DNA from: Idiomarina baltica OS145
GTDB taxonomy: Bacteria; Pseudomonadota; Gammaproteobacteria; Enterobacterales; Alteromonadaceae
Length of the DNA: 64,000 bases
Assembly (NCBI RefSeq): GCF_000152885.1
Contig: NZ_CH672405.1
Location: 286,658-350,657, forward strand
Direction of reading: 5' to 3'
Shown here: positions 9,750-41,331 of the stretch, piece by piece
Numbering within the stretch: position 1 is the stretch's first letter
Layout: each line of letters opens with the position of its first letter
Translations under genes and position numbers: made by a program
Notes under the pieces: model-generated
Told to the model about the DNA's origin: nothing
What the model saw: only the letters and a program-made list of their open reading frames with translations
Databases searched by the model: none

Positions 9750-9940
9750 TCGCTTTTTTTATTATAATTGGACGTGCATGTTTAAACTTTATAATATTTT
9801 TTTAAAAGCGTTTACTACTGTATCCGTCTGTTTGTTTTTGTTCACCCATTCATTATTAAAGCATCAAATACAATGCGTTGTTGGTCTCAGTGATGTAGAA
9901 TATTGACTTCTTATCCTCCGTTTAGGTTGCCAATTTATAC

Positions 9941-19688: not shown

Positions 19689-19843
19689 ATTCGTTAGCCT
19701 GTTCATCATTGGTTTCCAAAAAAGCCAGGAATCATCCCAGCTTAAAACACCTGCCTTGTGAAGTTTTCTGAGACAACCCTGAGTACTATGTTACTTTATA
19801 GTCAATGCTGTAAGTGCAGCTGCACCCAAAAGGTCTCTCGTAC

Positions 19844-20314
19844 ATGCTAAAAATTATTTTACTCGTTATTGCTCTTTCACCGTTAACTGCGATGGGCTGC
19901 TCGTGTGTCAGCACAGCAAAAAGTATTAACGATGTCATTAACGAACATGATGCCATTTTCATGGGAGTTGCGCTTAAAACTGAAAAAACACCAGGTGACT
20001 GGTATACCTCATTTTACAAGACAAAAATAAAAGTAGAACAAATCTGGAAAGGTAACGGCATGCCTACATCTGTTTTCATCAAAACTAACATCGAGACGAA
20101 CTCGTGCGGCGGGTCTGCTCCTCAGGTTGGCAACCGATTTCTGATTTTTGCCCATAAAACTCAAGATAACTTGTATTTAACAGGTGGTTGCTCAACATTT
20201 ATGGATCTCAACCAAGTCGAAAAAGATCTCGATTCTCTCAGTTCAGAACAACTGGCTGAGTGGCAATCGATGTTCTCAGAAATGTTTAAAGCAATGGCGA
20301 GTGCAGAGAAATAA
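19844..20314 (+). CDS. Secreted protein with TIMP-like (CxC) mature N terminus
   Basis: A signal peptide (MLKIILLVIALSPLTAMG) is followed by a mature start CSCVSTAKSINDVINEHDAIFMGVALKTE. The CxC start, the IFMG strand and the later NSCGG and GGCSTF cysteines are the pattern of bacterial proteins related to the TIMP/NTR OB-fold. A lipoprotein cleavage before the first Cys is possible, though the lipobox is poor. The start at 19844 is chosen over a GTG at 19814 because the signal peptide begins there. Function is unknown. Confidence 0.7.
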   Translation: MLKIILLVIALSPLTAMGCSCVSTAKSINDVINEHDAIFMGVALKTEKTPGDWYTSFYKTKIKVEQIWKGNGMPTSVFIKTNIETNSCGGSAPQVGNRFLIFAHKTQDNLYLTGGCSTFMDLNQVEKDLDSLSSEQLAEWQSMFSEMFKAMASAEK

Positions 20315-20336: not shown

Positions 20337-20663
20337 TCACCCCAACTTTTTTTCCAGAAAATTAATCGTTTCATTAACCGCTGAACTGGCATATTGACGG
20401 CTCGCAAATAGTAAACTGACCGGCGTAGGCGGCGGCATATAAGCACTTAAGATTTGTTTGAGTTCGCCACTCATAATTAAATCAGTCACTGAGTACTGAG
20501 GTAAAAAGCCAATACCCAGCCCCTTTTGCGCAGCCTGTCGCGTAGCGCGATTCTCATCACTAAAAAAGCGCCCTTTTACCGTTATCGGGATCTCTTTTCC
20601 AGAGCGATAAAAGCGCCAGCGACAGTTATCTTGGCCGCTCGCGCGGTTTACCCGATGCTTACG
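20337..20663 (-). pseudogene. 3' remnant of a LysR-family regulator gene
   Basis: The minus strand encodes about 108 residues that end in NFLEKKLG. They contain RFYRSGKEIPITVKGRFFSDENRATRQAAQ and GLGIGFLPQYSVTD, the end of a LysR substrate-binding domain. Upstream the frame meets a stop at once (TAA just before the ATT codon at about 20663). The DNA-binding domain and about 200 residues are missing and there is no start. The break lies about 90 nt from the end of the defence cluster, so it probably marks the left junction of inserted DNA. Confidence 0.75.
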
Positions 20664-20751
20664 AATTTAGCGCCACGAGCCGATCCAAGTATTCGACAAG
20701 CCGTTTTAGTGTTTATACTGCCAATACTAATAGGCATCCTTTCTCCGTCTA

Positions 20752-23700
20752 CTAGCTCGATAGAACCTCATTGAATGTAATAATTGTAGGCCAATTGCCC
20801 GAGTGTCGCATTTCTAAGTGTTCATTTAGTTTCATAGAGGTATCTACTTGGATTATAGAGTCACCTTCGAAAGGGAACTGACGCGCTTCATAACTTTTGC
20901 TGAAAGCTTTCCAATAACCAAAACCTTGATCAAATATCACTTCAATGATTCGGCCGGAGGTCCATTTCAATTCAAGCTTGCGAGAATGTTGCAGTTCCTG
21001 CGCATTATCTTTCAGTGTAATGGTTGTGCCATTTACACTAGGGCAAGCTCTGCTGATTAGTTGTTCCATAAATTCTCGCTGCTCATAATCGAAGCTCCAG
21101 TCATGAAATACTAAACGACCTTCTATGTTCGCTTCAGATTTTAATGCTGTAATATCAATTGACTTCGGCTCACACCTACTAAACAACTTAATAAAACTCA
21201 TAAGCATCATCACTGCCCATGGGCTTTTCAAATAGCGATCGGAATAGCTTATTGAGAGCAGTGTATCGTTTTTTATTAACTCCAATAATAACGGGAACTC
21301 GCGTTGAAGTAAGCCAACCATGCGAAGTGGCAACTGCAATAAGGCACCATCAAGCTCCTGCTTAACATATACGATTTTGGTAGTAACAGCGCCTTCATAA
21401 TTACCCCAATCAGATGTATTACAAGGCGTTAGCTGTAATTTGGGGAACTCGATTGAACTAACCCAAACTGCATGCTCATCGGTTAACCAATCGTCGTTAA
21501 TTTCAGTCGTACGTTCCGAGTTACTTAACAAGCTGAATGTTTTGTCGCCTGCTATTAATTGAAATCCTAGGGTGACGTCTTTGAGCAGACCAGCCGTCTC
21601 TCCGTAACTTATTTCTACACCTAAATACTCAAGGTTTTTTAAAGTGCGTTTCAAATCATTAACCAATACCTGCCTGCTATTCAAAGCTAAAGTTACACTA
21701 ACCTTATCGATGGTAATTAGATTTAAAATAAAGGAACGAAACGCATCTGCACTGAGATCCCAACGCTCAGTATCGCCATTCATTGGTAAAACGACGCGAA
21801 TGGATTCGTTCGTGTGTTTGGCGCGATTTTTCAACATATGGAACGCACGTAAAACACCAGATGAGCAAAACGCCGCATCAGGAATTTGCGTAAACTCTTG
21901 TGGTAACTCAAGGTGTTCAAGAATTTGACTCTCGTCAAGCCAAGCAATAGCAGCCCGACGGTCTAGTTCAAAACGCTCGACACTTGAATCATTGCCGGCT
22001 AAACAATGAGAACAGACCGTGTCACACTGGCTCGGACATTCAAGCTGTTTGCGAGTTGCGCGTAATAGACCGACCAAGTCATCTATGGCAGTAATAACGA
22101 AACCAGCCCCACCGCTTGCTTCATCAAACAATTGAATTACCATTCGGGGCGCACCATTCTCTAAATCCAGTTCTTCGCGCGTAGAAAAGCCAATTTCACT
22201 TGGCGAAATACCTAATTGCTCAGCCAGCACCTCGCGCATGGCAACCGCCAACGTATCGGCCACCATATGGTGCTCATCACTGGTTGTTAACCACTGTTGT
22301 TGCAGCGGATTACGCAAGCATATTTCAAGCACGTCCGTGCGTACTTGATACCCCAGCGCAATATTCGATTTAACATGTCCTCCCGAGCAAGATTCCTTTA
22401 AATCACCGGCAACGGCCCCACCTAATGGACGGTGGTCTCTCAGCACGTCCAGTTCACTAGGAATTGTATCTGTCGCGGTCATTGAGGCTGCGCGGCCACA
22501 TGCTAAACATACAGCAAAGCCGTAGCCATACTCTCCTTTGGTGTGATGGAAAATTTGCCCGTTGTGGCCAAACCGCACAAAGCCGCAGTCTTTGTTAGGC
22601 AGCGTAACTTGTTCGCCTATTAGGCTCACCCGAGGTTCAGCCACCGGAATAAACTTCTGAGTAAGAATATCGTTGCTTGTCGGCTTCCAGAAGTCGGTTA
22701 AAAAACCTGTGGGGCGCAGGGTGCTCACCTTTTCACGCTCGGGAATTAACGCGCGACATTGCATATTCGAACAGCACAGATCGCGGCTATTGGCATAAGC
22801 ATTTTCACGAACTCCTGTTGTACCGCACTTATCACAACGCCAAGCTACCGCAAAATGAATGTCATCATTATTGCCTGGATTTGTGAAATCTTTTATCACA
22901 ATTCCCTCAGAACGATAAGCACGCCCATCAATAACTAACGTTGCGCCAGGAGCATATTCACGTAACGCAATGTTGAGACTGCGCGAAGGTTTTTCTTTGT
23001 TTACAAATACATTGTCTTCGCGCTCTTTGAATTCTTTTTGTCGTTTGCTTTCTTTAAAGTCTTCAATGTTTTTATGATCTAGTTCGACCACATTGGTTGG
23101 GAAGCCATGTCCAGGTAAAAACGTGCTGCTAATCAATTCCTTCAATAAAAACTGACTGTTATGTGCACTTAATTCAAACGCAAGTGCACGCTTGTACGGC
23201 TCATCCGTCGAGGTATCATACAACGCTTGAATGCGTTGACGCTCCTCCAACCAGTCGGTTTTAATATCAGTTAATTTATCTTTCGCGGCTAGAATTAATT
23301 GACTTAATGACTCACCTGCTAGGCTAGTTTGATTAATCACTGACTTAACGGCATCGGCAAACTCGTCGCGTGAATAATCCATCCATGCCAACATTGTTTC
23401 GCATTCTGATGGTTCGCCCCCAAAAAATGACTCTGCCGATAACCGCGTACGATCACCCTCATCAGGTAACGTTCTTAAGAACGCGGCTAACAGCACCGCA
23501 TTCACGTGGCGCTGAACAATTGAACGCGAACTCAGAATCACTTTTGGGGCTGGAATAGCTGTCACAAAAGGCCACATTGGGTTAAGAAAAGCACGCTGGT
23601 TATGCGGGTCGGCCTTACACAAAGTATAAGCGATTGCCCGTGACTCTTTGCGTCGACCAGCACGACCAGCTCGCTGCAAATAATTGGCTGGGTGCGGCGG

Positions 23701-26700
23701 CAAATTATTCATCACAACAGCTGATATGCCACCAATATCGACGCCCATTTCCATGGTTGTTGAACAGTTTAAAACGTTGACATCACCTAACTTGAACAAA
23801 TTTTCATAGTTTGACAATGTTTTTGTCGACTGCTGAGCCGAATGTTCAGCTGTACGATAGTAAAAGCCCCCTTCGACAATACGATCACTTAGATTATTCC
23901 ACACCCCTTTACTGCGCAATTCGCGCACTGTCGGATGACTATTTAACTTCTCGCGTATTTCCCTAATTTGCGCAATACCAGACTCAAGAGAAGATAACTC
24001 GGTAAAATCGGGCATCTTAACCAGTTCACAGCGGTAATCAGCATCCGTAAGCTTGCGCGGTAGGTAGGGTGTTAATCCTCTAAACGTGGTGTCAATTAGC
24101 CGATATGTATTCGGACACAACCAAGCCTTACGTGGCAACGAAAAATTCAACGATGATAATTCTAACTGGAACCCGTTACTGCCAGATTGCTTGAGTATTT
24201 GATGCTGAGTTAGATCCGTCCACGCCCGCATCAGCCATAAGTTAATTTTGTCCTTGTCTTCAGCGTGAGCGGTTGAAAGGCCAGTTGCCAATTCAAGTAG
24301 TTTCACCAATCGGTTTTTATTCGCTGTTCGCACCTGCGGCCATTTTCTTATACGCGGGTTTTCTTGAATATCAGCGTTAGGCGAAAACAGAAACTTTTGC
24401 GTCGACAAGCTGCCCATCCAGTTCTGTAGGTCATCGTCCATACGCATCATGCGGTTTTCTCGCACATAGAAATCCAATGCAACTTTTAGAAAGTTCTTCC
24501 AATCATCGAGCGTAAGCTTGGAGCGCTCTCTCAAATTACCGGTTGCATTATGCGCAAAGGTTTCTTCCCAGAATTGGGGGCAGCTGCGAACCTGCTCAAG
24601 ACCCTCATAACCAACAGCAACTAACCCTAAGGTTTCGGTACTGATTTGCTTTTTTGGACGACGAGAAAATTCACGCATCATCAGCAACTGAGTAAGACGA
24701 CGTGGTCCACCTTCATCCCCAAATAATCGCGGGTTTGCATACCTATTGTATTTTAACATGGCACTTTTAATGTCATGCTGCTCTATAAAGCGATTCTCCA
24801 AATCGGTATATAAAACATTTACCGTCTGAGGCTCTTGCTGTTCGTTAAGTAGTCGCTCGAGCTCTTGCTCTTTTTTACTTGCTTTGTCATGCTGCTTTGA
24901 TTGCTTTGCGTACGCAATAACCATGCGAAGATCTTCAATTTTTTCGTTCACTTCAGCAGCTTTTTGTCCACCTATTAACTCTAGGTTCTTTTGTTGAAGT
25001 AATTGAAATACTAGACCACGAATACGCGAGCGTTCAGCCTCATGCTGCATGCGCACAGCCATTCGTGCTGTCCCTTGACGACTGTCAGTAAATGTAATGA
25101 GCTTCCTACCACGGCCTGGCAGCTCTTCTGGGCTGCGCTTGTTTGAATCTTTTTTGTCCGCATCAGGGCAAAACTCAAGAACGGTCGGCACCGCATTGGT
25201 TATGTAAAACGGTGCACCTAAATGTGCGCCACGATAAAAGTCACCTTTTGAATCCGTCTCACTAGCGCAAGCCGAACAGTTATCTATCTCGCCTACCCCT
25301 ATTTTTATAGAAATGTACTCATCGTCAATAACAGCGAACTCGCTTGTTTGTCTATTAAGGCTTTGCAAACAATAATGTTCGTTTTCAGAGGTCACAGCAC
25401 CAATCACAACATTGGAGCTTACGCCGCGTAAAATGCTTTCTTTTTCATCGTCGGCAGGAGTGTCATCACCATCATCTTGCTCAATGTTCAATGAAAACTC
25501 ATCAACACCCCGAGAAACTCGATGAGTTAATTTTCCGCGTTGATCTGCTGCTAATAAATGCGGTTCACTGCACTCGTTACAAAATACGACTTCAAAAACT
25601 GGCGCTCCACAATCACAATGTGAGCGCTCTGTTACGTAAACGGTTCCAAACGGAAAACTATTGAGCTCGGCTGGCTTGACATTGCAGCTATGGTCAACGC
25701 AAGCCCATAAGCCATGCAGCATCCGTTGAAAAAAGTGTGCTCGAACCTTCAAAAACGGATCGCCTTGCTTATCGCCCTTCGTGCCTGTCATCACGTCTAA
25801 CCAACTCAGAACTTCGACTTGTTGCTGTTGCAACGTTTTTCCTTCCAATAAAGGCGCTACACTCGCCACTAAGTCATCTAGTCGCTGAGGCTTGTCAGTA
25901 TCAAGAATTGTCGCACGTAATTTACTCGCGATAGCGCTCGACGATAGAGCTTTGAAACGCGACGCAGATACCTCCTCAGCGCTGTCAATTGCATTTACGT
26001 CATCAAGTGTATACGGGGTTGACTGCTCTAGCCACCCACCGCTTAATTGAGGGGTAATTCGACGACCCGTAATGACCGAAACCTGCTCAATAGGAACACC
26101 GGCCAAGTCGGCCAAATAATGCTGAAGCTTTTCCTCTGCATTAGCATCAGCAATAGTTGCCGACGTCGCCACAAAGCGAATATCTTTCGACTGACGCCCA
26201 AACGCATTCACCACCCGCTTCAATAGCAGTGATAGCTCCGCTGCTTGCGAACCAACATAGGTGTGAGCTTCGTCCAATACAATCCAGCGTAGCGACTGCT
26301 GCTGCTTTGAAATTTCCAAAATAGGACTATCAACTTGACGTACCAGCATGTACTCAAGCATGGTAGAGTTAGTCATTAGAATCGGAGCAGGCTCTTTTCG
26401 TAGTAATTCACGCGATAGTATTTGGTTCTTCAATATCGCTTGGCGTTTACGCACTTCAGATTTGCTGGCTTTGTGCTCAGTTTTACCATTATATAAGCAA
26501 AAGCGAATATCGCCTTCAAACTGGCGTGTCCACGCATCGAGTCGCTCTTGCTGTGAGTTAATCAGCGCATTTAACGGATAAAGAAACAGTGCTCGAACAC
26601 CAATTAATGCGCTCTGTGTTGCTTTTTGTTCGCGAATCAAGTCATCGAGAATGGGTACCATAAAGCATTCGGTTTTACCTGAGCCTGTCCCCGTAGTAAT

Positions 26701-27051
26701 TACCGCTGAACGCGGTTTTTTATCGGTTAACACCTGCCAAGCTTCAACTTGGTGTTTATATGGTTTGATTGATTTATCGAACTCGTATTTAGGTGCTTCG
26801 TGCAACGTTTTAATTAATTGCGGATGCAATAATTCGGGGCTCAATTCGGCAAAACTCTTCTTTCCAGGCGTCCAGCCAAATGTATGTTCAAATACAGGAT
26901 TGGCCAAAAAACTACCTTCTGCACCTAAACAATCGCTAAATTGCTTTTCAATATGCCGGCGAAGGCCTTCATTACGTATACCTAATACGCCCAACGTCGC
27001 TTCTTTAATCCGATTTTGAGATTGTTCAATTAATGCCTGGAAAAAATTCAT
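20752..27051 (-). CDS. druE: Druantia type III helicase DruE (DEAD/DEAH helicase with DUF1998)
   Basis: This 2099-residue superfamily 2 helicase has Walker A GTGSGKTE at residues 121-128, DEAH at 260-263, ATSAT near 297, and helicase motif VI QRAGRAGRR near 1120. A zinc-ribbon-like segment (CDKCGTTG, then CCSNMQC) and other Cys pairs (CDCGAP, CNECSE) are present. Around 1640-1690 lies a DUF1998-type region with ASGGAGF and the cluster CPSQCDTVCSHC. Size, architecture and the upstream partner fit DruE of Druantia type III anti-phage systems rather than DISARM DrmA (shorter, with drmB/methylase neighbours). It follows druH by 9 nt with AAGAG before the ATG, so the two are cotranscribed. The C-terminal 350 residues have no recognised domain. 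Confidence 0.85.
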   Translation of the reverse strand: MNFFQALIEQSQNRIKEATLGVLGIRNEGLRRHIEKQFSDCLGAEGSFLANPVFEHTFGWTPGKKSFAELSPELLHPQLIKTLHEAPKYEFDKSIKPYKHQVEAWQVLTDKKPRSAVITTGTGSGKTECFMVPILDDLIREQKATQSALIGVRALFLYPLNALINSQQERLDAWTRQFEGDIRFCLYNGKTEHKASKSEVRKRQAILKNQILSRELLRKEPAPILMTNSTMLEYMLVRQVDSPILEISKQQQSLRWIVLDEAHTYVGSQAAELSLLLKRVVNAFGRQSKDIRFVATSATIADANAEEKLQHYLADLAGVPIEQVSVITGRRITPQLSGGWLEQSTPYTLDDVNAIDSAEEVSASRFKALSSSAIASKLRATILDTDKPQRLDDLVASVAPLLEGKTLQQQQVEVLSWLDVMTGTKGDKQGDPFLKVRAHFFQRMLHGLWACVDHSCNVKPAELNSFPFGTVYVTERSHCDCGAPVFEVVFCNECSEPHLLAADQRGKLTHRVSRGVDEFSLNIEQDDGDDTPADDEKESILRGVSSNVVIGAVTSENEHYCLQSLNRQTSEFAVIDDEYISIKIGVGEIDNCSACASETDSKGDFYRGAHLGAPFYITNAVPTVLEFCPDADKKDSNKRSPEELPGRGRKLITFTDSRQGTARMAVRMQHEAERSRIRGLVFQLLQQKNLELIGGQKAAEVNEKIEDLRMVIAYAKQSKQHDKASKKEQELERLLNEQQEPQTVNVLYTDLENRFIEQHDIKSAMLKYNRYANPRLFGDEGGPRRLTQLLMMREFSRRPKKQISTETLGLVAVGYEGLEQVRSCPQFWEETFAHNATGNLRERSKLTLDDWKNFLKVALDFYVRENRMMRMDDDLQNWMGSLSTQKFLFSPNADIQENPRIRKWPQVRTANKNRLVKLLELATGLSTAHAEDKDKINLWLMRAWTDLTQHQILKQSGSNGFQLELSSLNFSLPRKAWLCPNTYRLIDTTFRGLTPYLPRKLTDADYRCELVKMPDFTELSSLESGIAQIREIREKLNSHPTVRELRSKGVWNNLSDRIVEGGFYYRTAEHSAQQSTKTLSNYENLFKLGDVNVLNCSTTMEMGVDIGGISAVVMNNLPPHPANYLQRAGRAGRRKESRAIAYTLCKADPHNQRAFLNPMWPFVTAIPAPKVILSSRSIVQRHVNAVLLAAFLRTLPDEGDRTRLSAESFFGGEPSECETMLAWMDYSRDEFADAVKSVINQTSLAGESLSQLILAAKDKLTDIKTDWLEERQRIQALYDTSTDEPYKRALAFELSAHNSQFLLKELISSTFLPGHGFPTNVVELDHKNIEDFKESKRQKEFKEREDNVFVNKEKPSRSLNIALREYAPGATLVIDGRAYRSEGIVIKDFTNPGNNDDIHFAVAWRCDKCGTTGVRENAYANSRDLCCSNMQCRALIPEREKVSTLRPTGFLTDFWKPTSNDILTQKFIPVAEPRVSLIGEQVTLPNKDCGFVRFGHNGQIFHHTKGEYGYGFAVCLACGRAASMTATDTIPSELDVLRDHRPLGGAVAGDLKESCSGGHVKSNIALGYQVRTDVLEICLRNPLQQQWLTTSDEHHMVADTLAVAMREVLAEQLGISPSEIGFSTREELDLENGAPRMVIQLFDEASGGAGFVITAIDDLVGLLRATRKQLECPSQCDTVCSHCLAGNDSSVERFELDRRAAIAWLDESQILEHLELPQEFTQIPDAAFCSSGVLRAFHMLKNRAKHTNESIRVVLPMNGDTERWDLSADAFRSFILNLITIDKVSVTLALNSRQVLVNDLKRTLKNLEYLGVEISYGETAGLLKDVTLGFQLIAGDKTFSLLSNSERTTEINDDWLTDEHAVWVSSIEFPKLQLTPCNTSDWGNYEGAVTTKIVYVKQELDGALLQLPLRMVGLLQREFPLLLELIKNDTLLSISYSDRYLKSPWAVMMLMSFIKLFSRCEPKSIDITALKSEANIEGRLVFHDWSFDYEQREFMEQLISRACPSVNGTTITLKDNAQELQHSRKLELKWTSGRIIEVIFDQGFGYWKAFSKSYEARQFPFEGDSIIQVDTSMKLNEHLEMRHSGNWPTIITFNEVLSS

Positions 27052-27060
27052 GATTTACTC

Positions 27061-30000
27061 TTAATTTGGGTTATTATTATTAGCGATTAAATAAGCGGTG
27101 GTAGCTGCATGTACTGGCCTAAACCACATTTCACGACCAAAATCAGACAGATTTGTCACTGCAAATTTCAATTGCGATGTTGGCACACCTAAACTTTTCG
27201 GACTAGCTAGACCGGCTGTAATACAGGCAACAAACATCGGCAAATAAACCACCGCATCGGTGTAACCAATACTAGATACTTGCTTGAAGCCATCACCTAA
27301 ACTCGACGCCATCACAAATGCTTTTAACTCATGTGACAAATCAATCGGCCAATTATCGTTTTCAGCAAAAAAACGCCGCAGTTCTTGATACCAGCATGGA
27401 ATAATCCTCTCGTACGGATATTGACGAACGGCTTGTACATCACCGGTCTGTATATAGTCAGTCAAGTACTCAAACGCCGAGACGATATCTTTAAGTGCAA
27501 CTTCGCGCTCTCGGACCGTAATGTCCGCGTAACTTTCAGGAACGCCTAACTTCATTATCGCATTAGCAAATAACGTTCGCGCTGATCGCCAAGTATCCAC
27601 AGGAATAAACTCCCAGACAACCGCCAGCTCATCGCTAATGCGTTCACAAAACATTGAATCAAGTTCAAGCCGGAATACAGCTAAAGCAAGCGCATCACTA
27701 TTGCACCCTAACGCGCGCCAGGCTTCGAAACTTGAGAGCGGAAGATGGCCGTATTTCCGCTTTAAAATACTTAAATAGTTCCAACCTGAGTGATTATAAT
27801 CCACTGCCATTTTTTCGATCTGTTCGCGAATAAGGTTCGGGCGCTCTATTGGGTGAAAGAAATTACAAGCTGAGTGTAATGATGTTAAAGCGCCTAAATC
27901 AGCCGATTCCACCAAGGTTTCCACCTCGTCGCCCGGCTGAACATAGGGCCGAACTTTCAATTCAGCATCGGCATCTGAATGAACGATCCATGTTGTATTC
28001 GAACTGATCAGTTTATCGATTGCATAACGTCCAGTGGGTGTTTCAGCCGATAAAATTGGCTCAATAATTAGCGGATGCTGTTCAGGGTTAATTATATTAA
28101 TTGCTCGTAAATTAATGGGAGCACGAATGTCATTACATTCATAGTCTTTAATAACAAGGTCATAGCCATCACGTTCCAAATACGCGTTATAACGCTGTAT
28201 GATTACCCGCTTTAAAACCGTTTGACCTAGCTGAATAACTAACTGCACAGCCGCATCTTGATCGCTTAAATTACCAAGCAACTTGGTAATTTCTCGATGC
28301 ATGCCAAACAAACTAATTTCAATCGGCAAATGATCAACAAATACGACATCATCTTTGACGTACTTAACCTGCCCTCTCGACATAACGTTTAAGGCAATAT
28401 TAAAACGCTGTCTTTTGTCACTACTATTGGTTAATTGAATCCGATGCCCTAACAAGCCATCAAGCAGCAGTGATGTACCCTCAAACGCGTCACCCATGGG
28501 GGTAATAATTCGTGCTCCAGCGACCGGAAATGGCACACGAAGTGTTACTGGTTTAGAACATTTGTCACTGCAAACATCCACGTTAAAAGAAACTGGAGCT
28601 TTGTTATCGCACGTGGTCAAACTGAATTTGCCGGCATCCAATTCATCAATGACAACATAGTTGGCTGCGCCATTGGCAACATTAGGCGTTACTTGGCAAC
28701 GAGCCGAGGTCATAAACTGAATAAATGCTGGGGTTGCTGATCGAGCTGGCCGTGTACGAATCTTTAAATCGTGAGGAACGACACCGAAGGTCCGTCGAAA
28801 TAGTGTTTTATCGAAATTGTCTTTTATAACCAACTGAACACGACCATAAATATTAGACAAATGGTTCAGGTTCAAAACACGCCTGTCATTGACGAATATG
28901 CGCAAATCTTCAAGTGCAAAGTTTGCGTCATCACTTAAGTTCAATTTAGGAAATTCAAAATAGGTGGTAATCGGTAAAGTCGACCAATTGGTTTCATGCC
29001 CTATCACTCGAATAAATGAACGTGGTTGCGCTTTACAAAGTTGGATCTCAAATTCATCATTATCGGCGTTTGTAATCAATGCATTCGACGACAATTCATA
29101 CAATGTGCCGAAATCATAGACCTTAATCAAATTCGCAGCCGATTCACCTTTACCAAATTGGCACTGCTTCGGTAACCATAAACGGGCACTCGTTTCGGCG
29201 ATAGAACAGGACTCAGAACCAGCGATGTACCAGCGATCAGCCTGCTCAGTAAGAACCAAAGGCGAAGCATCCAAATCAAGCAAACTATTTTCAATTGTGC
29301 GATTAAAAACAACACTACCATGTGAAACTAATTTAAAAGTAAGTGGCTCGGCACTGGCACTGCGCTTAACCTCAACTCGTGTTCGTTTGAAAGTTAACTG
29401 AATGCAGTCTTGCTTCTGATCGAGGCTAGCATATATCGGTGAGCCACGAAAAATAAGTCGGTTGCCTTCATAAATTAACGGCTCAAATCGAGTAGATATT
29501 ATCTCTTGCTCACTGCGCTTAATTTTTAACTCCCGCGGGATAACCACTTCGGAAGTCACATCGACACCACGGTTTGATAATTGAAAATAATTGTCTGATG
29601 TGAATTCAGATAACAGCTCAGCTTGGCGCTTCTTCTCAAGTGCACTTTGATGACGGCTCTTCTCTGCTTGTATTAACCAATCGTTAATCAAGCGTCGCCC
29701 ATTTTCAATATCTAACGGTATAGGAAAATCTTTATTCCACCCCTTAGCATGCTCATCCAAATATTCAGCTGGGTTTTTCACCTCTCGCAGCGGGTAAGCC
29801 TCAGTAAGCTTAGTTAAGCGTTCGACAATACCTGAGAGTAACTTAGCAGTATGAATAGTACGGAATACTTGCGGTAATTCTTCCTGATTATCTAACATCA
29901 ATGACGTTAGCGACTTATCCATTGCGGCAATTTTATAATAAGCACCAATACCACGACGAATTGCCCGACCAAAACCATGAGTATCACTATTTAAGAGAGG

Positions 30001-30402
30001 CCATGGCAACCCTCCTTCAGCAAACAATGAACCTAAATACGATATCCGGTTCTCGGTTTTTATGGGCTCACGACGCCAAAAAGCTAATCCACCTAGCGTG
30101 AGCTGAGCACGATTCTGTTGAGATATTTTCTGTGAAATCAAGTCTTCAATAGGCTTGGTTGAATATTCACCGGTGTACTGTCGACGATAATACTCCGCAA
30201 CCAAAAGACAAAATGCTGCGCCCGTATAGTGTGGCAGTCCTTTCGGAGGGTGTTTAATGAGATTTGCATGAGTTAAAAGAGAGATAAGCTTCTGAAATTC
30301 GTCAGCTGTAACTTGGTAAGAATATAACGGTTCGCCTTGCGGACCTTGAAATAGCTCTCGAGTAAAAAGAAACTCGTTGATCCATGCTTTGCAGTTATCC
30401 AT
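27061..30402 (-). CDS. druH: Druantia type III protein DruH (STY4851/ECs_5259 family)
   Basis: This 1113-residue protein has no motif I can assign to an enzyme. The N-terminal third is helical (GLPHYTGAAFCLLVAEYYRRQYTGEY, then GGLPWPLLNSDTHGFGRAIRRGIGAYY). The middle is beta-rich, and the C-terminal part is helical again. The recognisable N-terminal block, the size and the position directly upstream of a 2.1-kb-residue DUF1998 helicase fit DruH, the only partner of DruE in type III Druantia. It is transcribed first. Its molecular role is unknown in the literature I know. Assignment rests on recalled family similarity and gene order. Confidence 0.82.
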   Translation of the reverse strand: MDNCKAWINEFLFTRELFQGPQGEPLYSYQVTADEFQKLISLLTHANLIKHPPKGLPHYTGAAFCLLVAEYYRRQYTGEYSTKPIEDLISQKISQQNRAQLTLGGLAFWRREPIKTENRISYLGSLFAEGGLPWPLLNSDTHGFGRAIRRGIGAYYKIAAMDKSLTSLMLDNQEELPQVFRTIHTAKLLSGIVERLTKLTEAYPLREVKNPAEYLDEHAKGWNKDFPIPLDIENGRRLINDWLIQAEKSRHQSALEKKRQAELLSEFTSDNYFQLSNRGVDVTSEVVIPRELKIKRSEQEIISTRFEPLIYEGNRLIFRGSPIYASLDQKQDCIQLTFKRTRVEVKRSASAEPLTFKLVSHGSVVFNRTIENSLLDLDASPLVLTEQADRWYIAGSESCSIAETSARLWLPKQCQFGKGESAANLIKVYDFGTLYELSSNALITNADNDEFEIQLCKAQPRSFIRVIGHETNWSTLPITTYFEFPKLNLSDDANFALEDLRIFVNDRRVLNLNHLSNIYGRVQLVIKDNFDKTLFRRTFGVVPHDLKIRTRPARSATPAFIQFMTSARCQVTPNVANGAANYVVIDELDAGKFSLTTCDNKAPVSFNVDVCSDKCSKPVTLRVPFPVAGARIITPMGDAFEGTSLLLDGLLGHRIQLTNSSDKRQRFNIALNVMSRGQVKYVKDDVVFVDHLPIEISLFGMHREITKLLGNLSDQDAAVQLVIQLGQTVLKRVIIQRYNAYLERDGYDLVIKDYECNDIRAPINLRAINIINPEQHPLIIEPILSAETPTGRYAIDKLISSNTTWIVHSDADAELKVRPYVQPGDEVETLVESADLGALTSLHSACNFFHPIERPNLIREQIEKMAVDYNHSGWNYLSILKRKYGHLPLSSFEAWRALGCNSDALALAVFRLELDSMFCERISDELAVVWEFIPVDTWRSARTLFANAIMKLGVPESYADITVREREVALKDIVSAFEYLTDYIQTGDVQAVRQYPYERIIPCWYQELRRFFAENDNWPIDLSHELKAFVMASSLGDGFKQVSSIGYTDAVVYLPMFVACITAGLASPKSLGVPTSQLKFAVTNLSDFGREMWFRPVHAATTAYLIANNNNPN

Positions 30403-30758
30403 GTTCTGATTATTATATTTTTTTAATTATGAAATAAATTTAAATTGAATCTTCTAGATGATCAACCCAAATTTCCCACACAAATTTTGTTTAGGTTATT
30501 ATTTGAATCTAGGGATTTTAATAAAGCTACTTCAAGAGTTAGCTACTACAAAGGCCCGTAAACAACTAATCTGATTAAAAACAAACTTGCACGTCAATGC
30601 ATTACGCTCTCAATAAAGCACTCCCTTCCACGAAGCTGGAGTTCGGATCTTAAGTGCATACTGCTGGCAGTGACATCAGATTTTTCCATGGCATAATGAC
30701 TGCAAATAATGGATGACAATAACGCTTAGAACTAGGTTGTACGGGGACGTTAATAACA
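30403..30758. promoter_or_regulatory. Divergent intergenic region between druH and hsdM
   Basis: This AT-rich 356-nt region must hold the promoters of both defence operons, which are read away from each other. On the minus strand TATAAT (30412-30417) stands close to the druH start, but I see no matching -35 element. No ORF, tRNA, or strong inverted repeat was found. A regulator gene is not encoded here. Confidence 0.5.
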
Positions 30759-32294
30759 ATGACAACGATTAGCCAGGACAGCATCAATAAAGCACTTTGG
30801 AACGCTTGTGACACCTTTCGCGGTACGATAAATGCCGGAACCTATCAAGACTTTCTTCTGACCATGCTTTTCCTTAAATACATCTCGGATGTATGGCAGG
30901 ACCATTACGATCAATACGTAGCCCAGCATGGTGATGAGCCTGAGCTCATCGAAGAGATGATGAAGAGCGAACGCTTTGTGTTACCGCGTGATGCTAGCTT
31001 TTATGCACTCTATGACCGTCGCTATGAGCCGGGTAATGGTGAGCGTATAGACCAGGCTCTGCATGCCATTGAAGAAGCCAACGGCACCAAGCTAAAAGAC
31101 GCTGGTAAAAGTGTGTTCCAGGACATCAGCTTTAATACCGATAAGCTCGGTGAAGAAAAGCAGAAAAACGACATTCTCCGACACTTGCTCGAAGACTTCG
31201 CCAAGCCAGAGCTTAACTTAAAACCCAGTCGCGTAGGTTCACTGGATGTTATCGGTAACGCGTACGAGTATCTGATTAAACACTTTGCAGCCAGCGGCGG
31301 CCAAAAAGCCGGTGAGTTTTATACCCCACCTGAAATATCCGACTTGATAGCAGAGCTACTCGACCCTCAACCCGGTGACAGCATTTGTGACCCGGCCTGT
31401 GGCTCCGGTTCTTTATTGATGAAGTGTGGCCGCAAAGTTATCGCAAACCATGACAGCAAAGAATATGCCCTGTTCGGTCAGGAAGCTATTGGCTCCACCT
31501 GGTCATTAGCCAAAATGAACATGTTCCTGCATGGTGAGGATAATCATAAAATTGAATGGGGCGATACCATTCGTAATCCTAAGCTGTTGGATAAAAACGG
31601 CGACCTGATGCTGTTTGATATCGTCACCGCTAACCCACCTTTTAGTCTGGATAAATGGGGTCATGATGACGCAGAGAACGACAAGTTCAGTCGCTTCCGT
31701 CGTGGCGTACCGCCCAAAACCAAAGGCGACTATGCGTTTATCCTGCACATGATAGAAACACTGAAGCCCGCGTCTTCGTCGAAACGCGGGGGCCGCATGG
31801 GCGTGGTTGTACCACACGGCGTATTATTCCGAGGCTCGAAAGAAGGCAAAATTCGCCAGCAACTGATTGACGAAAACCTATTAGACGCCGTTATCGGCCT
31901 ACCCGAGAAGCTTTTCTACGGCACCGGCATTCCAGCCGCTATTTTGGTGTTCAAAAAATCGAAGTCCGATGACAAAGTACTGTTCATCGACGCCTCGCGT
32001 GAATTTAAATCCGGTAAAAACCAAAACCAGCTAAGCGACGACAATATTCAGAAAATCGTCGATACCTACCACAGCCGCGAAACCGTCGAAAAATACTCGT
32101 ACCTGGCAACACTCGGGGAAATTCAAGAAAACGATTACAACCTGAACATCCCCCGCTACGTCGACACCTTCGAGGAAGAGGAAGAAATCGATTTGATGGC
32201 AGTTCGAGTAGAGCGCCAAAAGCTAAAAGTAGAACTGGAGGAATTGGAAAGCCAGATGGAAAAATATCTGGAGGAGTTGGGTTATGGCTCGTAA
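30759..32294 (+). CDS. hsdM: Type I restriction-modification system, adenine methyltransferase subunit HsdM
   Basis: This 511-residue protein has an N-terminal helical HsdM domain (INKALWNACDTFRGTINAGTYQDFLLTMLFLKYISD), an AdoMet-binding motif I DPACGSGSLLM (about residue 211) and the catalytic NPPF (about 292). A C-terminal coiled coil (RVERQKLKVELEELESQMEKYLEELG) contacts HsdS. It forms the M2S1 methylase and R2M2S1 nuclease complexes, methylating N6 of adenine in a bipartite site. It overlaps hsdS by 11 nt. Confidence 0.96.
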   Translation: MTTISQDSINKALWNACDTFRGTINAGTYQDFLLTMLFLKYISDVWQDHYDQYVAQHGDEPELIEEMMKSERFVLPRDASFYALYDRRYEPGNGERIDQALHAIEEANGTKLKDAGKSVFQDISFNTDKLGEEKQKNDILRHLLEDFAKPELNLKPSRVGSLDVIGNAYEYLIKHFAASGGQKAGEFYTPPEISDLIAELLDPQPGDSICDPACGSGSLLMKCGRKVIANHDSKEYALFGQEAIGSTWSLAKMNMFLHGEDNHKIEWGDTIRNPKLLDKNGDLMLFDIVTANPPFSLDKWGHDDAENDKFSRFRRGVPPKTKGDYAFILHMIETLKPASSSKRGGRMGVVVPHGVLFRGSKEGKIRQQLIDENLLDAVIGLPEKLFYGTGIPAAILVFKKSKSDDKVLFIDASREFKSGKNQNQLSDDNIQKIVDTYHSRETVEKYSYLATLGEIQENDYNLNIPRYVDTFEEEEEIDLMAVRVERQKLKVELEELESQMEKYLEELGYGS

Positions 32295-33543
32295 ATTGGA
32301 TGAGTCATCAGTTCCGAAACGTTGGAGGTATGAGTTATTAGACAAAATGGCTACGAGATGCAGTGGCCATACACCTAGCAAGTCATACCCTGAATACTGG
32401 AACGGAGGTATTAAGTGGGTCTCCCTGACAGATAGTTACCGGTTGGATCAAGGGTATATATACGAAACGGATAAAGAGATTTCCGCTGAGGGCATCAAGA
32501 ATAGCTCAGCTCAGTTGCATCCAGCTGAAACGGTTATATTGTCTCGAGATGCAGGCATTGGTAAAAGTGCGGTTCTTGCTGAGCCAATGGCTGTCAGCCA
32601 GCACTTTATAGCTTGGATATGCGATAATAAAGAAACGTTACATAGTTGGTTTTTATATAATTGGCTTCAGCTGAATAAACCAGAATTTGAACGCCAAGCT
32701 GTTGGATCCACGATAAAAACTATCGGGTTACCATATTTTAAAAAGCTTAAAGTTCTCGCCCCACCATTTTCCGAGCAACAGAAAATAGCCCAAATCCTCT
32801 CAACCTGGGATAAGGCCATCACCACCACCGAGCAACTGCTCGCCAATAGCCAGCAGCAGAAAAAAGCCCTCATGCAACAACTGCTCACCGGCAAAAAGCG
32901 CCTGCTGGATGAGAATGGTGTGCGGTTTGGTGGGGAGTGGGAATGCTTTACATTAAATGACTTGTTCACTTTTAAGCGAGGTAAAGGCCTATCAAAAAGC
33001 GATATTAGCACGACAGGCAAGAATCGGTGCGTGCTATACGGTGAGTTGTATACTCGCTACGCAGAGGTCATTGATAACGTAAACAGTAGAACTGATAAGA
33101 ATGAAGCAGAACTCTCGGAATCAGGAGACATATTGATACCAAGCTCTACTACTACCAGTGGTATCGATTTAGCAAACGCGACAGCCATCCTGGAGAATGG
33201 TGTATTGCTTGGTGGTGATATAAATATCTTACGACCACGTTCGAAGTTATCGTCCCAATTTATGGCTCATGTTCTTACTCATATCAAACGTTACGAAATA
33301 GCCTCTTTAGCTCAAGGTATAACAATCATCCATCTTTATGGGTCAGATTTGAAAAAATTGAAGGTTTGGATACCCCGAAAGCTGGACGAGCAAATTAAAA
33401 TTTCGCAGGTACTATCCGCGATAGACAAAGCGTCTCTGAAACTTCAAATTAAGCTTGATATTCTAAAACAGGAAAAAAAATCCCTAATGCAACAACTGCT
33501 CACCGGCAAACGTCGCGTGAAAGTTGATGAGGAGGCAGCATGA
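32284..33543 (+). CDS. hsdS: Type I restriction-modification system, specificity subunit HsdS
   Basis: This 419-residue protein has two target-recognition domains, each followed by a conserved helix. The first (about residues 10-165) ends in FSEQQKIAQILSTWDKAITTTEQLL and LMQQLLTGKKR. The second (about 215-375) ends in LDEQIKISQVLSAIDKASLKLQ and LMQQLLTGKRR. The two TRDs differ, so the recognised site is a bipartite asymmetric sequence that cannot be predicted here. The two conserved helices share an identical 24-nt DNA repeat. The 3' end overlaps the GIY-YIG gene by 4 nt (ATGA). Confidence 0.95.
   Translation: MARKLDESSVPKRWRYELLDKMATRCSGHTPSKSYPEYWNGGIKWVSLTDSYRLDQGYIYETDKEISAEGIKNSSAQLHPAETVILSRDAGIGKSAVLAEPMAVSQHFIAWICDNKETLHSWFLYNWLQLNKPEFERQAVGSTIKTIGLPYFKKLKVLAPPFSEQQKIAQILSTWDKAITTTEQLLANSQQQKKALMQQLLTGKKRLLDENGVRFGGEWECFTLNDLFTFKRGKGLSKSDISTTGKNRCVLYGELYTRYAEVIDNVNSRTDKNEAELSESGDILIPSSTTTSGIDLANATAILENGVLLGGDINILRPRSKLSSQFMAHVLTHIKRYEIASLAQGITIIHLYGSDLKKLKVWIPRKLDEQIKISQVLSAIDKASLKLQIKLDILKQEKKSLMQQLLTGKRRVKVDEEAA
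32872..32895 (+). repeat. hsdS internal direct repeat, copy 1
   Basis: A 24-nt stretch encoding MQQLLTGK is identical to 33487-33510. It lies after the first target-recognition domain and can serve as a recombination point for exchanging TRDs. Confidence 0.85.
33487..33510 (+). repeat. hsdS internal direct repeat, copy 2
   Basis: This copy is identical to 32872-32895 and lies after the second target-recognition domain, near the gene's end. Confidence 0.85.
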
Positions 33544-34421
33544 CGGATAAGCAACCAAGAACCATCCAAATCTTCTTACCTAACGGGGATCCATCGGGGA
33601 TTCGCGTTGCTGAAGTCACCACCTCAATTGTTCGGTTAATTGAAGTACCGCGTAATCAAATTGGTGAGTTTCTTAAAATGCAGGAAGCGCATCAGGTTGG
33701 ACTTTACTTTCTTGTTGGCAGAGAGAACCAGGACGAAGTTTATATCGGTCAGTCCGGCGATGTCGGGCATCGCTTGGGTCAGCACTTAAAAGATGACTCG
33801 AAGGACTGGGAACGAGCGTTAGTGTTAATCTCACTCACCAATAACCTGACACAAACCCACGTGCTTTACCTTGAGTCGTTAAGTATTGAAAAAGCACGCC
33901 AGTGCGGTCGCTACGAATTGGTCAACGGTAATCGAGGGCAGAAGCCTCATACCCCAATTCCATTAAAAGCTGACTGCGATGAAATACATCGTGTCGGCTC
34001 ATTGTTACTGGCCACACTGGGCTATCCTATTTTTGAAGCGTTGGTCGATGCCGAAGAAGCCGCCACAGAAGAAGTCTTTTACTGTCAGCGCGGTGGCGTC
34101 GATGCCAAAGCCTTTTACACCAATGAAGGGATGGTTATTTTAAAAGGCTCATCAGCGCCTTATGTCCCCAAACGCAAAACAACACAACCACGCTTAATAG
34201 CCCAGCGTGATTCGCTGCTAGAGAAAGGCGTGTTGGCTAAGGATGGTGACAACGTCGTTTTCCAAAAAGACTACCTATTCAAAACGCCCAGTGGGGCATC
34301 CTGCCTTTTAGTCCTTGGTGCTACAAATGGCTGGAAGGAATGGAAAACCAAACACGGTCAAACACTGGATGATTACGTTGGACGCGATAACGATATCAGC
34401 GAATCTCAAAACCAGGAATGA
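33540..34421 (+). CDS. GIY-YIG nuclease-like protein with C-terminal DUF4357
   Basis: Residues about 53-125 form a GIY-YIG-like module: GLYFLVGRENQDEVYIGQSGDVGHRLGQH, with the Arg (HRL) and a downstream Glu (YLESLSIEKARQCGRY). The C-terminal segment (GMVILKGSSA, then TPSGASCLLVLGATNGWKEWKTKHG) is a DUF4357-type module. The start overlaps the hsdS stop (ATGA), so translation is coupled and the gene is a true member of the hsd operon. Similar genes occur inside other type I operons; what they do there is not established. Cleavage of foreign or modified DNA is an inference. Confidence 0.85.
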   Translation: MTDKQPRTIQIFLPNGDPSGIRVAEVTTSIVRLIEVPRNQIGEFLKMQEAHQVGLYFLVGRENQDEVYIGQSGDVGHRLGQHLKDDSKDWERALVLISLTNNLTQTHVLYLESLSIEKARQCGRYELVNGNRGQKPHTPIPLKADCDEIHRVGSLLLATLGYPIFEALVDAEEAATEEVFYCQRGGVDAKAFYTNEGMVILKGSSAPYVPKRKTTQPRLIAQRDSLLEKGVLAKDGDNVVFQKDYLFKTPSGASCLLVLGATNGWKEWKTKHGQTLDDYVGRDNDISESQNQE

Positions 34422-34473
34422 CAATAGCTGAACAGGCAGTAGTCAACTTTGTGTTTACTACTGAGTAGAGCTG

Positions 34474-34498
34474 AGTTGTTCGGTTTCGCCGAACAACT
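34474..34498 (+). other. Perfect 10-bp stem-loop between the GIY-YIG gene and hsdR
   Basis: AGTTGTTCGG pairs with CCGAACAACT across TTTCG. A T-rich stretch follows only about 15 nt later, so it may attenuate or process the operon mRNA before hsdR rather than end it. Confidence 0.5.
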
Positions 34499-34577
34499 TA
34501 ATCTGGTAGCTTATTTTTTGATTTAAAAATAATAAAAAGCGTCTGTTGCCATCAGGTGACGTTACGCGGAGAAGACA

Positions 34578-37500
34578 ATGGAACAGTTTGCCCCCAAATT
34601 TCAGGAAGAATACGCCGCTAAAATACCGGCGATGACGCTATTAGCCGGTTTGGGGTGGACGTTTTTATCGCCGCAAGAAGCGCTGTCGCTGCGTGGTGGC
34701 AAGCAAGACCGTGTGGTACTCCGTGAGGTATTACGTGATTTACTGAGCAAGCGTACCTTTCATTATGCCGGTAGGAGCTATCCGCTATCCGAAAACTCCA
34801 TTGATAACATTGTCTCGCATCTGTGCAGTCCTGCCCTGAATGAGGGCCTCCAGCATGCCAACGAAGCGATTTATAACCATTTAATGTACGGCATCCCGGT
34901 GACTGAATTTATCGACGGCAAAAAGGTCACGCCGACTGTATCCATCATCGACTGGCAAAATCCAGGCAACAACCAATTTCACTTTACCGAAGAGTACACG
35001 GTGACACGTGCCGGTGGCTTTGACAGTCGCCGCCCTGACCTGGTTTGCTTTGTTAATGGCTTGCCACTGGTGGTCATTGAAGCCAAACGCCCTGACGGCA
35101 ACAGCCAGAAAGGCCCAACGATTAACGAAGGTATTTCACAGAGTCTACGTAACCAACGCCCTGACGAAGTCCCTCACCTGTTTGCCTATTCGCAGCTGTT
35201 ATTATCGGTTAACGGTATTGATGGGCGTTATGGCACTGTCGAGACCCCGGAAAAGTTCTGGGCCGCCTGGAAAGAAGAAGATATCAGCGATGCTGAAATG
35301 CTGGCGCTAAAAAATAAAACGCTGGATGATGCCACCCTACAACATTTGTTCGACCACCGGGACAATCGCGACCTGAGCTGGTATCAAAACCTGCTTGCTG
35401 GTGGTGAGCTGATGGTAACCGGGCAGGATAAACTGTTGATAAGCCTGCTCTCTAAAGATCGTCTGTTCGACATGATCCGCTACTTCACCATTTTCGATAA
35501 AAAAATTGGCAAGATTGTGGGTCGTTACCAACAAGTCTTTGGCATCAAGCGTTTGCTTGAGCGTATTCAAAAGCGTAACAGTAAAGGTGGTCGCGAAGGT
35601 GGTGTTATCTGGCATACCACCGGCTCGGGTAAGTCCTTCACCATGGTGTTTTTATCTAAAGCGCTGATTTTGCACGAAGAGCTGAAGCAATGCCGGGTCA
35701 TTGTTGTCACCGACCGTGTTGATTTAGAAAACCAGCTCTCGAAGACCTTTGCCTCTGGCGGCGAGTTATCCAGTAAGAAAGACAAAGAGGCGGCCATGGC
35801 TACCTCGGGTAAACGCCTGGCTCAGCAAATTGGTAAGGGCAACGAGCGCATTATCTTTACGCTGATTCAGAAGTTTAACTCAGCCACCAAACTGCCTGAG
35901 TGTTATAACAACAGCCCGAATATTATTGTGCTGATTGATGAGGGCCACCGCAGCCAGGGCGGCGAAAACAACATTCGCATGAACCAGGCACTGCCGAATG
36001 CGTCATTTGTCGCCTTTACCGGTACACCGCTGTTAAAAGACGATAAAACGACCAACAAGTTCGGTCCTATCGTTCACGCGTACACCATGCAACGTGCGGT
36101 GGAAGATAAAACCGTCACGCCCCTACTCTACGAAGAGCGCATACCCGACCTGGATGTTAACGAGCGCGCCATCGACGCCTGGTTCGAGCGTATGACGGAT
36201 GGTTTAAGTGACGAGCAAAAAGGCGATTTAAAGAAAAAGTTCAGTCGCCGGGGTCAGGTGTATGGCACAGACGAGCGCATAAAGCTGATTGCGTACGACA
36301 TCGCCCATCACTTCGACAAAAACATCGATGAAGGCTTAAAGGGCCAGCTGTGCTGCGATAGCAAAGCCTCCGCCATCAAGTACAAAAAATACCTGGACGA
36401 AGTCGGGCTGTTTGAATCCGCTGTAGTCATGAGCTCGCCCGATACCCGCGAAGGCAATACCTCGGTTGACGAGAAAGCCATGCCAGAAGTCAGTAAGTGG
36501 TGGAAAGAGCACGTCGGCTCATCTGATGAACAGAATTACACCAAAGAGCTGGTCGAGCGATTTGATAAAGACCCGAAGCTGAAGCTGTTGATTGTGGTTG
36601 ATAAGCTATTAACCGGTTTTGATGAGCCGAAAAACGCCGTGCTCTATATCGACAAACCGCTTAAAGGCCATAACCTCATTCAGGCGATTGCCCGGGTTAA
36701 CCGCCTACACCCCGACAAGAAGTTTGGACTACTGATTGATTATCGCGGCATTCTGTCCGAACTGGATACCACCATAAAGGAATATCAGGATCTGGCTTCA
36801 CGTACACAAGGCGGGTACGACATCGACGACATTGATGGCCTGTACCAACAAATGAGTACCGAGTACAAACGCCTACCCCAACTTTATAAAGAGCTATGGG
36901 CGATATTTGACGGTGTTAAGAATAAATCAGACACCGAAGCCCTGCGTCATGCCCTGTTGCCTCGCATGGAAGAAATTAACGGTGAGATGGTGGATAAAAA
37001 CCAAAAACGCCGCGAAGACTTTTACGAAGCACTCACAGCCTTTGCCACTTGCCTTAAAGTTGCACTGCAGTCGGCTACCTTCTTTGACGATAAGAGCTTT
37101 ACCGAAAAGGACCGTCGACAATACAAAGAAACGGTTAAACAGTTATCCAGCCTTCGCCAAACTGTGCAACAGGATTCCGGCGAGCGTGTCAGTTACGACG
37201 AGTACGCGCACGAGGTGAAAAAATTGCTGAATAAACACGTCGTTGGTGTCGAAGTGCGTGACTCGGAAGGCGTCTACGAAGTCGGTAAAATGGGTCAGAA
37301 GCAAGAGCCAGAGGACTGGAGCGAGGACAAGACTCGTAACGAAACTGATATCATTAAAACCCGTGTCACTAAGATGATTGAACAAGAGCTCGGTGATGAC
37401 CCTTACGCTCAAGAAGCCTTTTCTAAGCTCCTGCGTGAAGCTATTGAAGAAGCGGAAAAACTGTTTGACCACCCGCTGAAACAGTACATGCTGTTCCGCG

Positions 37501-37859
37501 AATTTGAGGAGCAGGTACAAGAGCGTCGTCTGGATGATATCCCTGAACGGTTGACCGGCAACCATCATGCGCAAGCCTATTACGGCGTGTTCAAAAAGCA
37601 CCTACCCGAGGCGTTTACAGTAATGGATGAACAGGCACAGGATAAATGGGTGGAGATTGCGTTTGATGTCGATAACATCGTTAGCCAGTCCGTTGCGGAA
37701 AACTCGATTAACCCGAATAACATTGAAGCTGATATTCGCAAAAAGCTACTGCCGAAGATTTTTGCGGAATGCAAGGCCGTCGGCGGCGGTATCGAACAGG
37801 CGAAAAAGATTGTCGAAGCGATTGTGCAGGTTGTTCGTGTTGGGCAATTAGGTCATTAA
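34578..37859 (+). CDS. hsdR: Type I restriction-modification system, restriction (motor/nuclease) subunit HsdR
   Basis: This 1093-residue protein has the N-terminal PD-(D/E)xK nuclease (RRPDLV...VVIEAKR, key residues near D154, E168, K170) and a RecA-like motor with Walker A HTTGSGKSFTM (about 346-354). DEGH follows in LIDEGHRSQGG, then FTGTPL and QAIARVNRLHPDK. A C-terminal helical domain contacts HsdM. It translocates DNA and cuts at a distance from unmethylated sites. GGAGAAG precedes the ATG. It lies 156 nt after the GIY-YIG gene and only 3 nt before the next gene. Confidence 0.96.
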   Translation: MEQFAPKFQEEYAAKIPAMTLLAGLGWTFLSPQEALSLRGGKQDRVVLREVLRDLLSKRTFHYAGRSYPLSENSIDNIVSHLCSPALNEGLQHANEAIYNHLMYGIPVTEFIDGKKVTPTVSIIDWQNPGNNQFHFTEEYTVTRAGGFDSRRPDLVCFVNGLPLVVIEAKRPDGNSQKGPTINEGISQSLRNQRPDEVPHLFAYSQLLLSVNGIDGRYGTVETPEKFWAAWKEEDISDAEMLALKNKTLDDATLQHLFDHRDNRDLSWYQNLLAGGELMVTGQDKLLISLLSKDRLFDMIRYFTIFDKKIGKIVGRYQQVFGIKRLLERIQKRNSKGGREGGVIWHTTGSGKSFTMVFLSKALILHEELKQCRVIVVTDRVDLENQLSKTFASGGELSSKKDKEAAMATSGKRLAQQIGKGNERIIFTLIQKFNSATKLPECYNNSPNIIVLIDEGHRSQGGENNIRMNQALPNASFVAFTGTPLLKDDKTTNKFGPIVHAYTMQRAVEDKTVTPLLYEERIPDLDVNERAIDAWFERMTDGLSDEQKGDLKKKFSRRGQVYGTDERIKLIAYDIAHHFDKNIDEGLKGQLCCDSKASAIKYKKYLDEVGLFESAVVMSSPDTREGNTSVDEKAMPEVSKWWKEHVGSSDEQNYTKELVERFDKDPKLKLLIVVDKLLTGFDEPKNAVLYIDKPLKGHNLIQAIARVNRLHPDKKFGLLIDYRGILSELDTTIKEYQDLASRTQGGYDIDDIDGLYQQMSTEYKRLPQLYKELWAIFDGVKNKSDTEALRHALLPRMEEINGEMVDKNQKRREDFYEALTAFATCLKVALQSATFFDDKSFTEKDRRQYKETVKQLSSLRQTVQQDSGERVSYDEYAHEVKKLLNKHVVGVEVRDSEGVYEVGKMGQKQEPEDWSEDKTRNETDIIKTRVTKMIEQELGDDPYAQEAFSKLLREAIEEAEKLFDHPLKQYMLFREFEEQVQERRLDDIPERLTGNHHAQAYYGVFKKHLPEAFTVMDEQAQDKWVEIAFDVDNIVSQSVAENSINPNNIEADIRKKLLPKIFAECKAVGGGIEQAKKIVEAIVQVVRVGQLGH

Positions 37860-37862
37860 GCC

Positions 37863-41306: not shown

Positions 41307-41331
41307 AAAAAATAGGGGCACTCAGCCCCTA
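41307..41331 (-). terminator. Intrinsic terminator overlapping the stop of the small recombinase gene
   Basis: TAGGGGC (41313-41319) pairs with GCCCCTA (41325-41331). On the minus strand a run of six T follows (41307-41312). The recombinase stop codon (41329-41331) is part of the stem. Confidence 0.7.

Follow-up and report, generated by a model that had tools for sequence, protein, structure and literature searches.

The window, a stretch of 64,000 nt from Idiomarina baltica OS145, very probably contains a complete two-gene Druantia type III system that entered by horizontal transfer into a restriction island already there, as a cassette of druH and druE alone. The pair is a well-supported and ordinary member of its type; the copy is new, and the kind is known from the experiments of others. 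The initial annotation had identified the system correctly. It had also held that how DruH and DruE sense phage is not established, a view that is now outdated: the question has been studied in two 2026 papers (PMC13192584; PMC13316683) and is largely addressed in print.

Among the profiles listed, those of type III are the best matches of both proteins, over their full length. The PADLOC profile DruH3 (PDLC00050) matches DruH at 1716.6 bits over residues 1-1111, and DruE3 (PDLC00037) matches DruE at 2395.1 bits over residues 1-2094 of 2099 (E = 0 for each). With such values over both full proteins, and with druH and druE adjacent in 15 of 16 loci, the matches are not due to chance. The placement of the 1113-residue protein with the STY4851/ECs_5259 (YjiT) kind is borne out by NCBIfam NF038336, which scores 673.6 bits against a cut-off of 150; Pfam matched no domain in DruH. 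On DruE, Pfam finds DEAD (residues 99-305), Helicase_C (1065-1134) and MZB (1602-1684) and also ResIII. The Cys motifs that had been singled out, CDKCGTTG and CCSNMQC, are present in DruE, and seven Cys residues (C1406, C1409, C1427, C1432, C1676, C1680, and C1683) do not vary among 12 DruE sequences.

The gene arrangement is likewise as first described (Table 1). Both ORFs were found at the positions, on the strand and with the sizes given for them, separated by a gap of 9 nt (27052-27060). The nearest outside ORFs of at least 100 aa, hsdM (30759-32294) and a 166-aa ORF (19814-20314), lie on the opposite strand; a lysR remnant 3' of druE is on the strand of the pair. The short gap and the conserved gene order suggest that druH and druE are on one transcript. 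A simple scan for sigma-70-like sites found none on the minus strand upstream of druH (in the region, 17 sites against 19.4 expected).

Table 1. Features of the window discussed in the text, with coordinates in the window
Feature	Position	Strand	Remarks
lysR remnant, headless, 3' side of druE	20337-20624	minus	frame matches the L084 LysR C terminus up to the break
druE-druH cassette	20625-30667		not in the matching locus of congener G567, which has ~1 kb there with the greater part of an intact 298-aa lysR
druE	20752-27051	minus	2099 aa, ATG start; YprA-like SF2 helicase, MrfA Zn-binding region, C-terminal PLD-like region
PLDa position (C-terminal PLD-like domain)	20764-21387	minus	DruE residues ~1889-2096; placed by invariant residues and a low-confidence model
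PLDi position (upstream, inactive PLD-like domain of E. coli DruE)	21520-21942	minus	DruE residues ~1704-1844, boundaries estimated; placed by alignment to E. coli DruE and the published architecture
druH	27061-30402	minus	1113 aa, ATG start; Druantia type III DruH (YjiT family)
DruH codon 82, ACC (Thr)	30157-30159	minus	Trp in the other 16 of 17 DruH sequences
Type I restriction-modification operon	30759-38645	plus	HsdM, HsdS, GIY-YIG/DUF4357, HsdR, YgjP-like; neighbour, not Druantia
GIY-YIG/DUF4357 protein, between hsdS and hsdR	33540-34421	plus	PADLOC candidate PDC-S14
tmRNA gene	51590-51949	minus	

The locus and its relatives

The limits of the cassette emerge from comparison with a congener (G567), in whose flank (L084) lysR is intact and a type I restriction operon comes next; most of the window operon is present in it. 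DNA identity between the two is ~90% over stretches of hsdM and hsdR; hsdS is mostly unalike, and the GIY-YIG/DUF4357 gene is missing in G567, where only ~110 nt lie between the two matching ORFs. Similarity breaks at 20624, inside lysR, and returns at ~30668, before hsdM, so that ~10.0 kb with druE and druH replaces ~1 kb. Since lysR is intact in the congener and a headless remnant in the window, the direction of change was probably gain rather than loss. The only long ORFs of the cassette are druE, druH and ORFs lying across them; thus the cassette brought in no gene of a mobile element. The restriction operon is independent of Druantia. The tmRNA gene is not supported as an integration site, given its distance of ~21 kb and given that lysR and hsdM are the boundaries of the replaced segment. 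Beyond the restriction operon, a HipA-like kinase gene (HipA_2) and a DUF3037 gene (39784-41291) match the PADLOC candidate pair PDC-M66A/B, and a 186-aa gene of the Phage_integrase family (41329-41889) lies beside an efflux operon. The integrase-like gene is part of the far flank: in one congener (G132) its alignment extends over the efflux genes as well, and in another (G566) it lies nearby.

The DruH3 profile matches 1 of 19 genomes of the genus, which is the present one. Counting this genome, 10 of 196 genomes sampled from the family match, with E 4.8e-156 or better in five of the ten, as do 11 of 369 sampled from the class. Besides this genome, 19 have a DruH3 match; stretches of 13 of them were examined, and those left out are G066, G099, G128, and G190 (E ~1e-4), G455 (1.7e-18) and G508 (9.5e-57). 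All 16 related loci, each chosen by its DruH match, have a DruE-like ORF, and druH directly precedes druE on one strand in 15. One locus (L035) has an 890-aa DruE-like ORF on the strand opposite its DruH and is included in the 17-sequence DruH alignment, not in the 16-sequence DruE alignment; another (L039) is in neither, and alignments A1 and A3 were made from 12 of the 16 DruE sequences. In each of 15 comparisons DruE is the better conserved of the two proteins, in line with what is reported for them in PMC13192584. In one of the 15 loci with the usual order (L026, genome G045) druH occupies two ORFs of 513 and 585 aa (4840-6381 and 6378-8135, overlapping by 4 nt), followed by an intact druE; the break falls at about residue 521 of the window DruH and is either a genuine split or a frameshift.

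A single-protein query of genome contigs gave one named relative, Aliidiomarina celeris (L001). Its DruE is 90% and its DruH 88% identical to the window proteins, and its two genes are also 9 nt apart. The DNA is 86% alike over 20765-30473 and the similarity ends at these positions, so the common part is the two genes and ~70 bp upstream; there is no other DNA match of at least 150 bases in the 23 kb compared. Relative to A. celeris, the Nei-Gojobori estimate of dN/dS is 0.081 in druE (dS 0.63) and 0.099 in druH (dS 0.66), and both genes are under purifying selection.

At E 1e-5, DruH matched none of 50,697 phage records. Of 72,556 plasmid records it matched 15, all below 60% identity and five covering at least 80% of the query. 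Among viral contigs, 17 loci match the DruE alignment A1, with only L039 near full length, and none of these matches was confirmed with the CTD alignment. L039, an IMG/VR contig filed as viral, has at 434-9777 a druH-like ORF of 1086 aa and then an interrupted druE, whose two ORFs are 1340 and 614 aa long.

Conserved residues and the proposed working of the pair

The pair has been studied experimentally in two species. In E. coli, DruH is described as probably sensing late phage structural proteins and as a nuclease that depends on dimerisation. DruE, a dimeric helicase, is described as loading on 3' tails, assembling into higher-order forms and cutting long DNA; the system is reported to be sensitive to RecD loss (PMC13192584, a preprint). 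In Mycolicibacterium smegmatis, a minor tail protein activates the pair and circularisation of phage DNA is blocked (PMC13316683). On binding between DruH and DruE the two studies are at odds: contact is required in M. smegmatis (PMC13316683), whereas the preprint reports no stable complex (PMC13192584).

By homology, the window DruH is likely an infection sensor and an auxiliary nuclease. It would recognise a late phage structural protein of the tail or baseplate type, and would then change its assembly state and nick phage DNA. The helicase core of DruE would load on replicating phage DNA where it is single-stranded with a 3' end, after which DruE would multimerise and its C-terminal PLD-like domain would cut DNA. 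For activity in I. baltica, we infer all of these steps by carrying over the E. coli model. The host has RecB and RecD genes, both scoring over curated cut-offs.

The helicase core retains much of what has been named in E. coli DruE: of the residues named, 8 of 10 in the ATP pocket and 11 of 19 that contact DNA are kept, among them K126, D260-E261, R1130, N161, R214, N228, Y234, R238, and R1357 (for two named residues, K97 and N1536, the E. coli reference used here differs from PMC13192584 itself). The 350-residue C terminus, which had been called unassigned, is no longer so, as it corresponds to the PLDi and PLDa domains of E. coli DruE (PMC13192584), both C-terminal in the domain architecture given in another preprint (PMC12458937). 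The window CTD aligns with the E. coli CTD through to its end, in one case by a profile that itself included an E. coli sequence; a profile made without that sequence reaches residue 2093 of E. coli DruE. Within the CTD, none of the four nucleotide-pocket residues of PMC13192584 (N1987, Q1990, Y1995, and R1258) is kept in the window, and 12 of the 13 interface residues are not kept, in stretches where the alignment is weaker. The position of R1258 holds Ala in the window DruE and Arg in 4 of 16 DruE sequences. With E values up to 10 admitted, Pfam gave nothing credible for 12 DruE CTDs, the best match having E 0.0065.

The last domain has a set of residues of its own. Y1936, D1938, W1985, H2022, R2024, D2041, G2043, Y2046, and W2047 are identical in 16 of 16 DruE sequences; in the viral-contig L039, a 17th, Y2046 is replaced and the other eight are kept. 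From this conservation, the invariant H, R, and D are a putative catalytic site. A structure model of residues 1688-2099 is poor (mean pLDDT 44.8). Among the matches listed (the best 50 in each search, against a structure library ending 2026-04-08), its last domain is closest to the PLD-like domain of MITD1 (Z 10.7, 144 residues, rmsd 4.2), followed, on the same poor model, by SauUSI (Z 7.2), TDP1 (6.9) and Nuc (6.4). The 50 matches listed in either search do not include PDB entry 9tu7, a DruE of the E. coli type. The MITD1 domain is a non-catalytic relative of PLD. For the upstream part, at the PLDi position, no fold is claimed, because Zucchini/PLD4 and thioredoxin-like chains matched about equally. 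We found no open-licence PMC paper that links Druantia with MITD1, or Druantia with Aliidiomarina.

In DruH, most of the positions essential in E. coli are retained. F64, E70, R73, R74, W109, L123, L126, G130, and G131 are kept, with F108 in place of Tyr and S125 in place of Thr as substitutions. The E. coli positions H85, K87 and W88 correspond to E79, S81, and T82 in the window, the first two being variable across sequences. W88A abolishes E. coli defence (PMC13192584). As Trp is otherwise kept at position 82, the window DruH may be impaired or retuned. The codon is ACC in the window and TGG in A. celeris. Five residues have been named at the ATP/Mg site of DruH; the window keeps none of them, in a region of weak alignment, and a fold prediction of whole DruH was unusable (mean pLDDT 29.8).

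A more specific reading combines these observations: the nuclease of the family would be an unconventional PLD-like centre (H-x-R, D-[Q/M]-G, and Y-x-D, in a MITD1-like fold) rather than the poorly kept R1258 pocket, and the trigger surface of DruH would have been retuned in this lineage by the Trp to Thr change at 82. We propose this tentatively and consider it rather doubtful. The kept HxR...D motif and the T82 substitution are nevertheless two specific points for mutational test.

Alternative explanations

Related systems have a helicase of the same family, and one of another kind (DISARM, Dpd, ARMADA or Druantia of another type), also with a YprA-family helicase, could in principle be mistaken for type III. 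The SF2 core is common to all of them, and several of their profiles do score on the window DruE: DruE1 at 526.1 bits, DruE2 at 370, DruE4 at 332.4, DpdJ at 99 and DrmA at 50. These values are to be compared with the full-length DruE3 score given above; moreover, the partner gene is DruH, which is specific to type III, and the helicase and the Zn region are in one protein, unlike DrmA and DrmB of DISARM. A mistaken type is therefore extremely improbable. DISARM is rejected on the location of the MZB domain inside the helicase protein and on the DrmA score, Dpd on the DpdJ score, and Druantia types I, II, and IV on those of DruE1, DruE2 and DruE4. A Vsr match, indicative of the ARMADA-type nuclease, was absent among the Pfam matches of 12 DruE CTDs up to E 10. 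The profile search that the initial annotation had proposed thus placed the helicase neither with DrmA nor in another clade, and it matched DruH; neither of the results named in advance as contrary to the identification arose.

Given a true type III pair, one may ask whether it acts by its own means and whether it still acts. It could work mainly via neighbouring restriction or other nucleases instead of the PLD-like domain of DruE, as a type I restriction operon adjoins it, Druantia III cooperates with ZorE in E. coli (PMC13192584), and the published pocket residue R1258 is poorly kept. We consider this very unlikely: H2022, R2024, and D2041 are identical in all 16 DruE sequences, as a working site would predict, and G567 has most of the restriction operon without Druantia. 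Queries with E. coli ZorA and ZorB also gave no match in this genome, a weak negative whose sole positive control was the own plasmid of the ZorB query. That the locus is decaying or inactive, its genes intact and its DruH without an essential residue, is somewhat less improbable, and still unlikely. It is favored by the loss of a Trp present in 16 of 17 DruH sequences and essential in E. coli. The change from TGG to ACC takes three base changes and so is not a single miscall. Against decay, both frames are open over 1113 and 2099 codons, the remainder of the N-terminal patch is mostly kept, and dN/dS is ~0.1 in both genes; this value is an average for the entire period since the two lineages parted and is thus compatible with a recent loss of function. 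A complete system acquired as a cassette remains our preferred reading. Points that count against it are T82, the residues of the CTD pocket, the CTD interface and the DruH ATP/Mg site that the window lacks, the disagreement between the two studies on DruH-DruE binding, and the poor quality of the fold predictions.

Comparison with known systems

DISARM shares with the window pair a YprA-family helicase and DUF1998, and differs in having them in separate proteins, the helicase in DrmA and DUF1998 in DrmB (PMC12458937). ARMADA combines a C-terminal Vsr-type nuclease with DISARM-like partner genes; the partner of the window helicase is DruH. The M. smegmatis system has the same type III name and the same two components; its DruE is reported to be of 1667 aa, and neither of its proteins to have a canonical nuclease domain (PMC13316683).

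Solved structures exist for both proteins. PDB entries 9tu7-9tuc (DEAD/DEAH box helicase) are homologous to DruE over 5-685 and 786-2053, and 9tu7 aligns closely with the E. coli copies. The DruH entry, 9tud, matches the window DruH pairwise over residues 6-259 only; a profile search covered 5-1115 of it, with an E. coli sequence in the profile alignment. These codes differ from those that PMC13192584 lists for its own structures. Profiles rebuilt without the E. coli sequence match the DruH and DruE of the E. coli plasmid copy (L024) over 5-961 of 1119 residues (392.7 bits) and over 8-2093 (1926.5 bits), respectively, and with L036-L038 also removed they score 291.6 and 1747.7 bits. As a control, 200 shuffled sequences were scored in each of the four runs, and none exceeded 2.7 bits. 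The last 158 residues of E. coli DruH fall outside the match of the E. coli-free profile.

The E. coli Druantia III (PMC13192584; L024) is thus alike in having druH followed by druE, the same helicase core and Zn region, an alignable C-terminal PLD-like region, and the key ATP and ssDNA contacts. It differs in the CTD interface and pocket residues and in having Trp at DruH W88 where the window has Thr; DruE of L024 is 32.5% and DruH 16.7% identical to the window proteins. In L024, Zorya II genes adjoin Druantia, whereas the window genome gave no ZorA or ZorB match in the weak test above. A pair this distant, and intact, helps to tell features of the whole type III family from peculiarities of E. 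coli.
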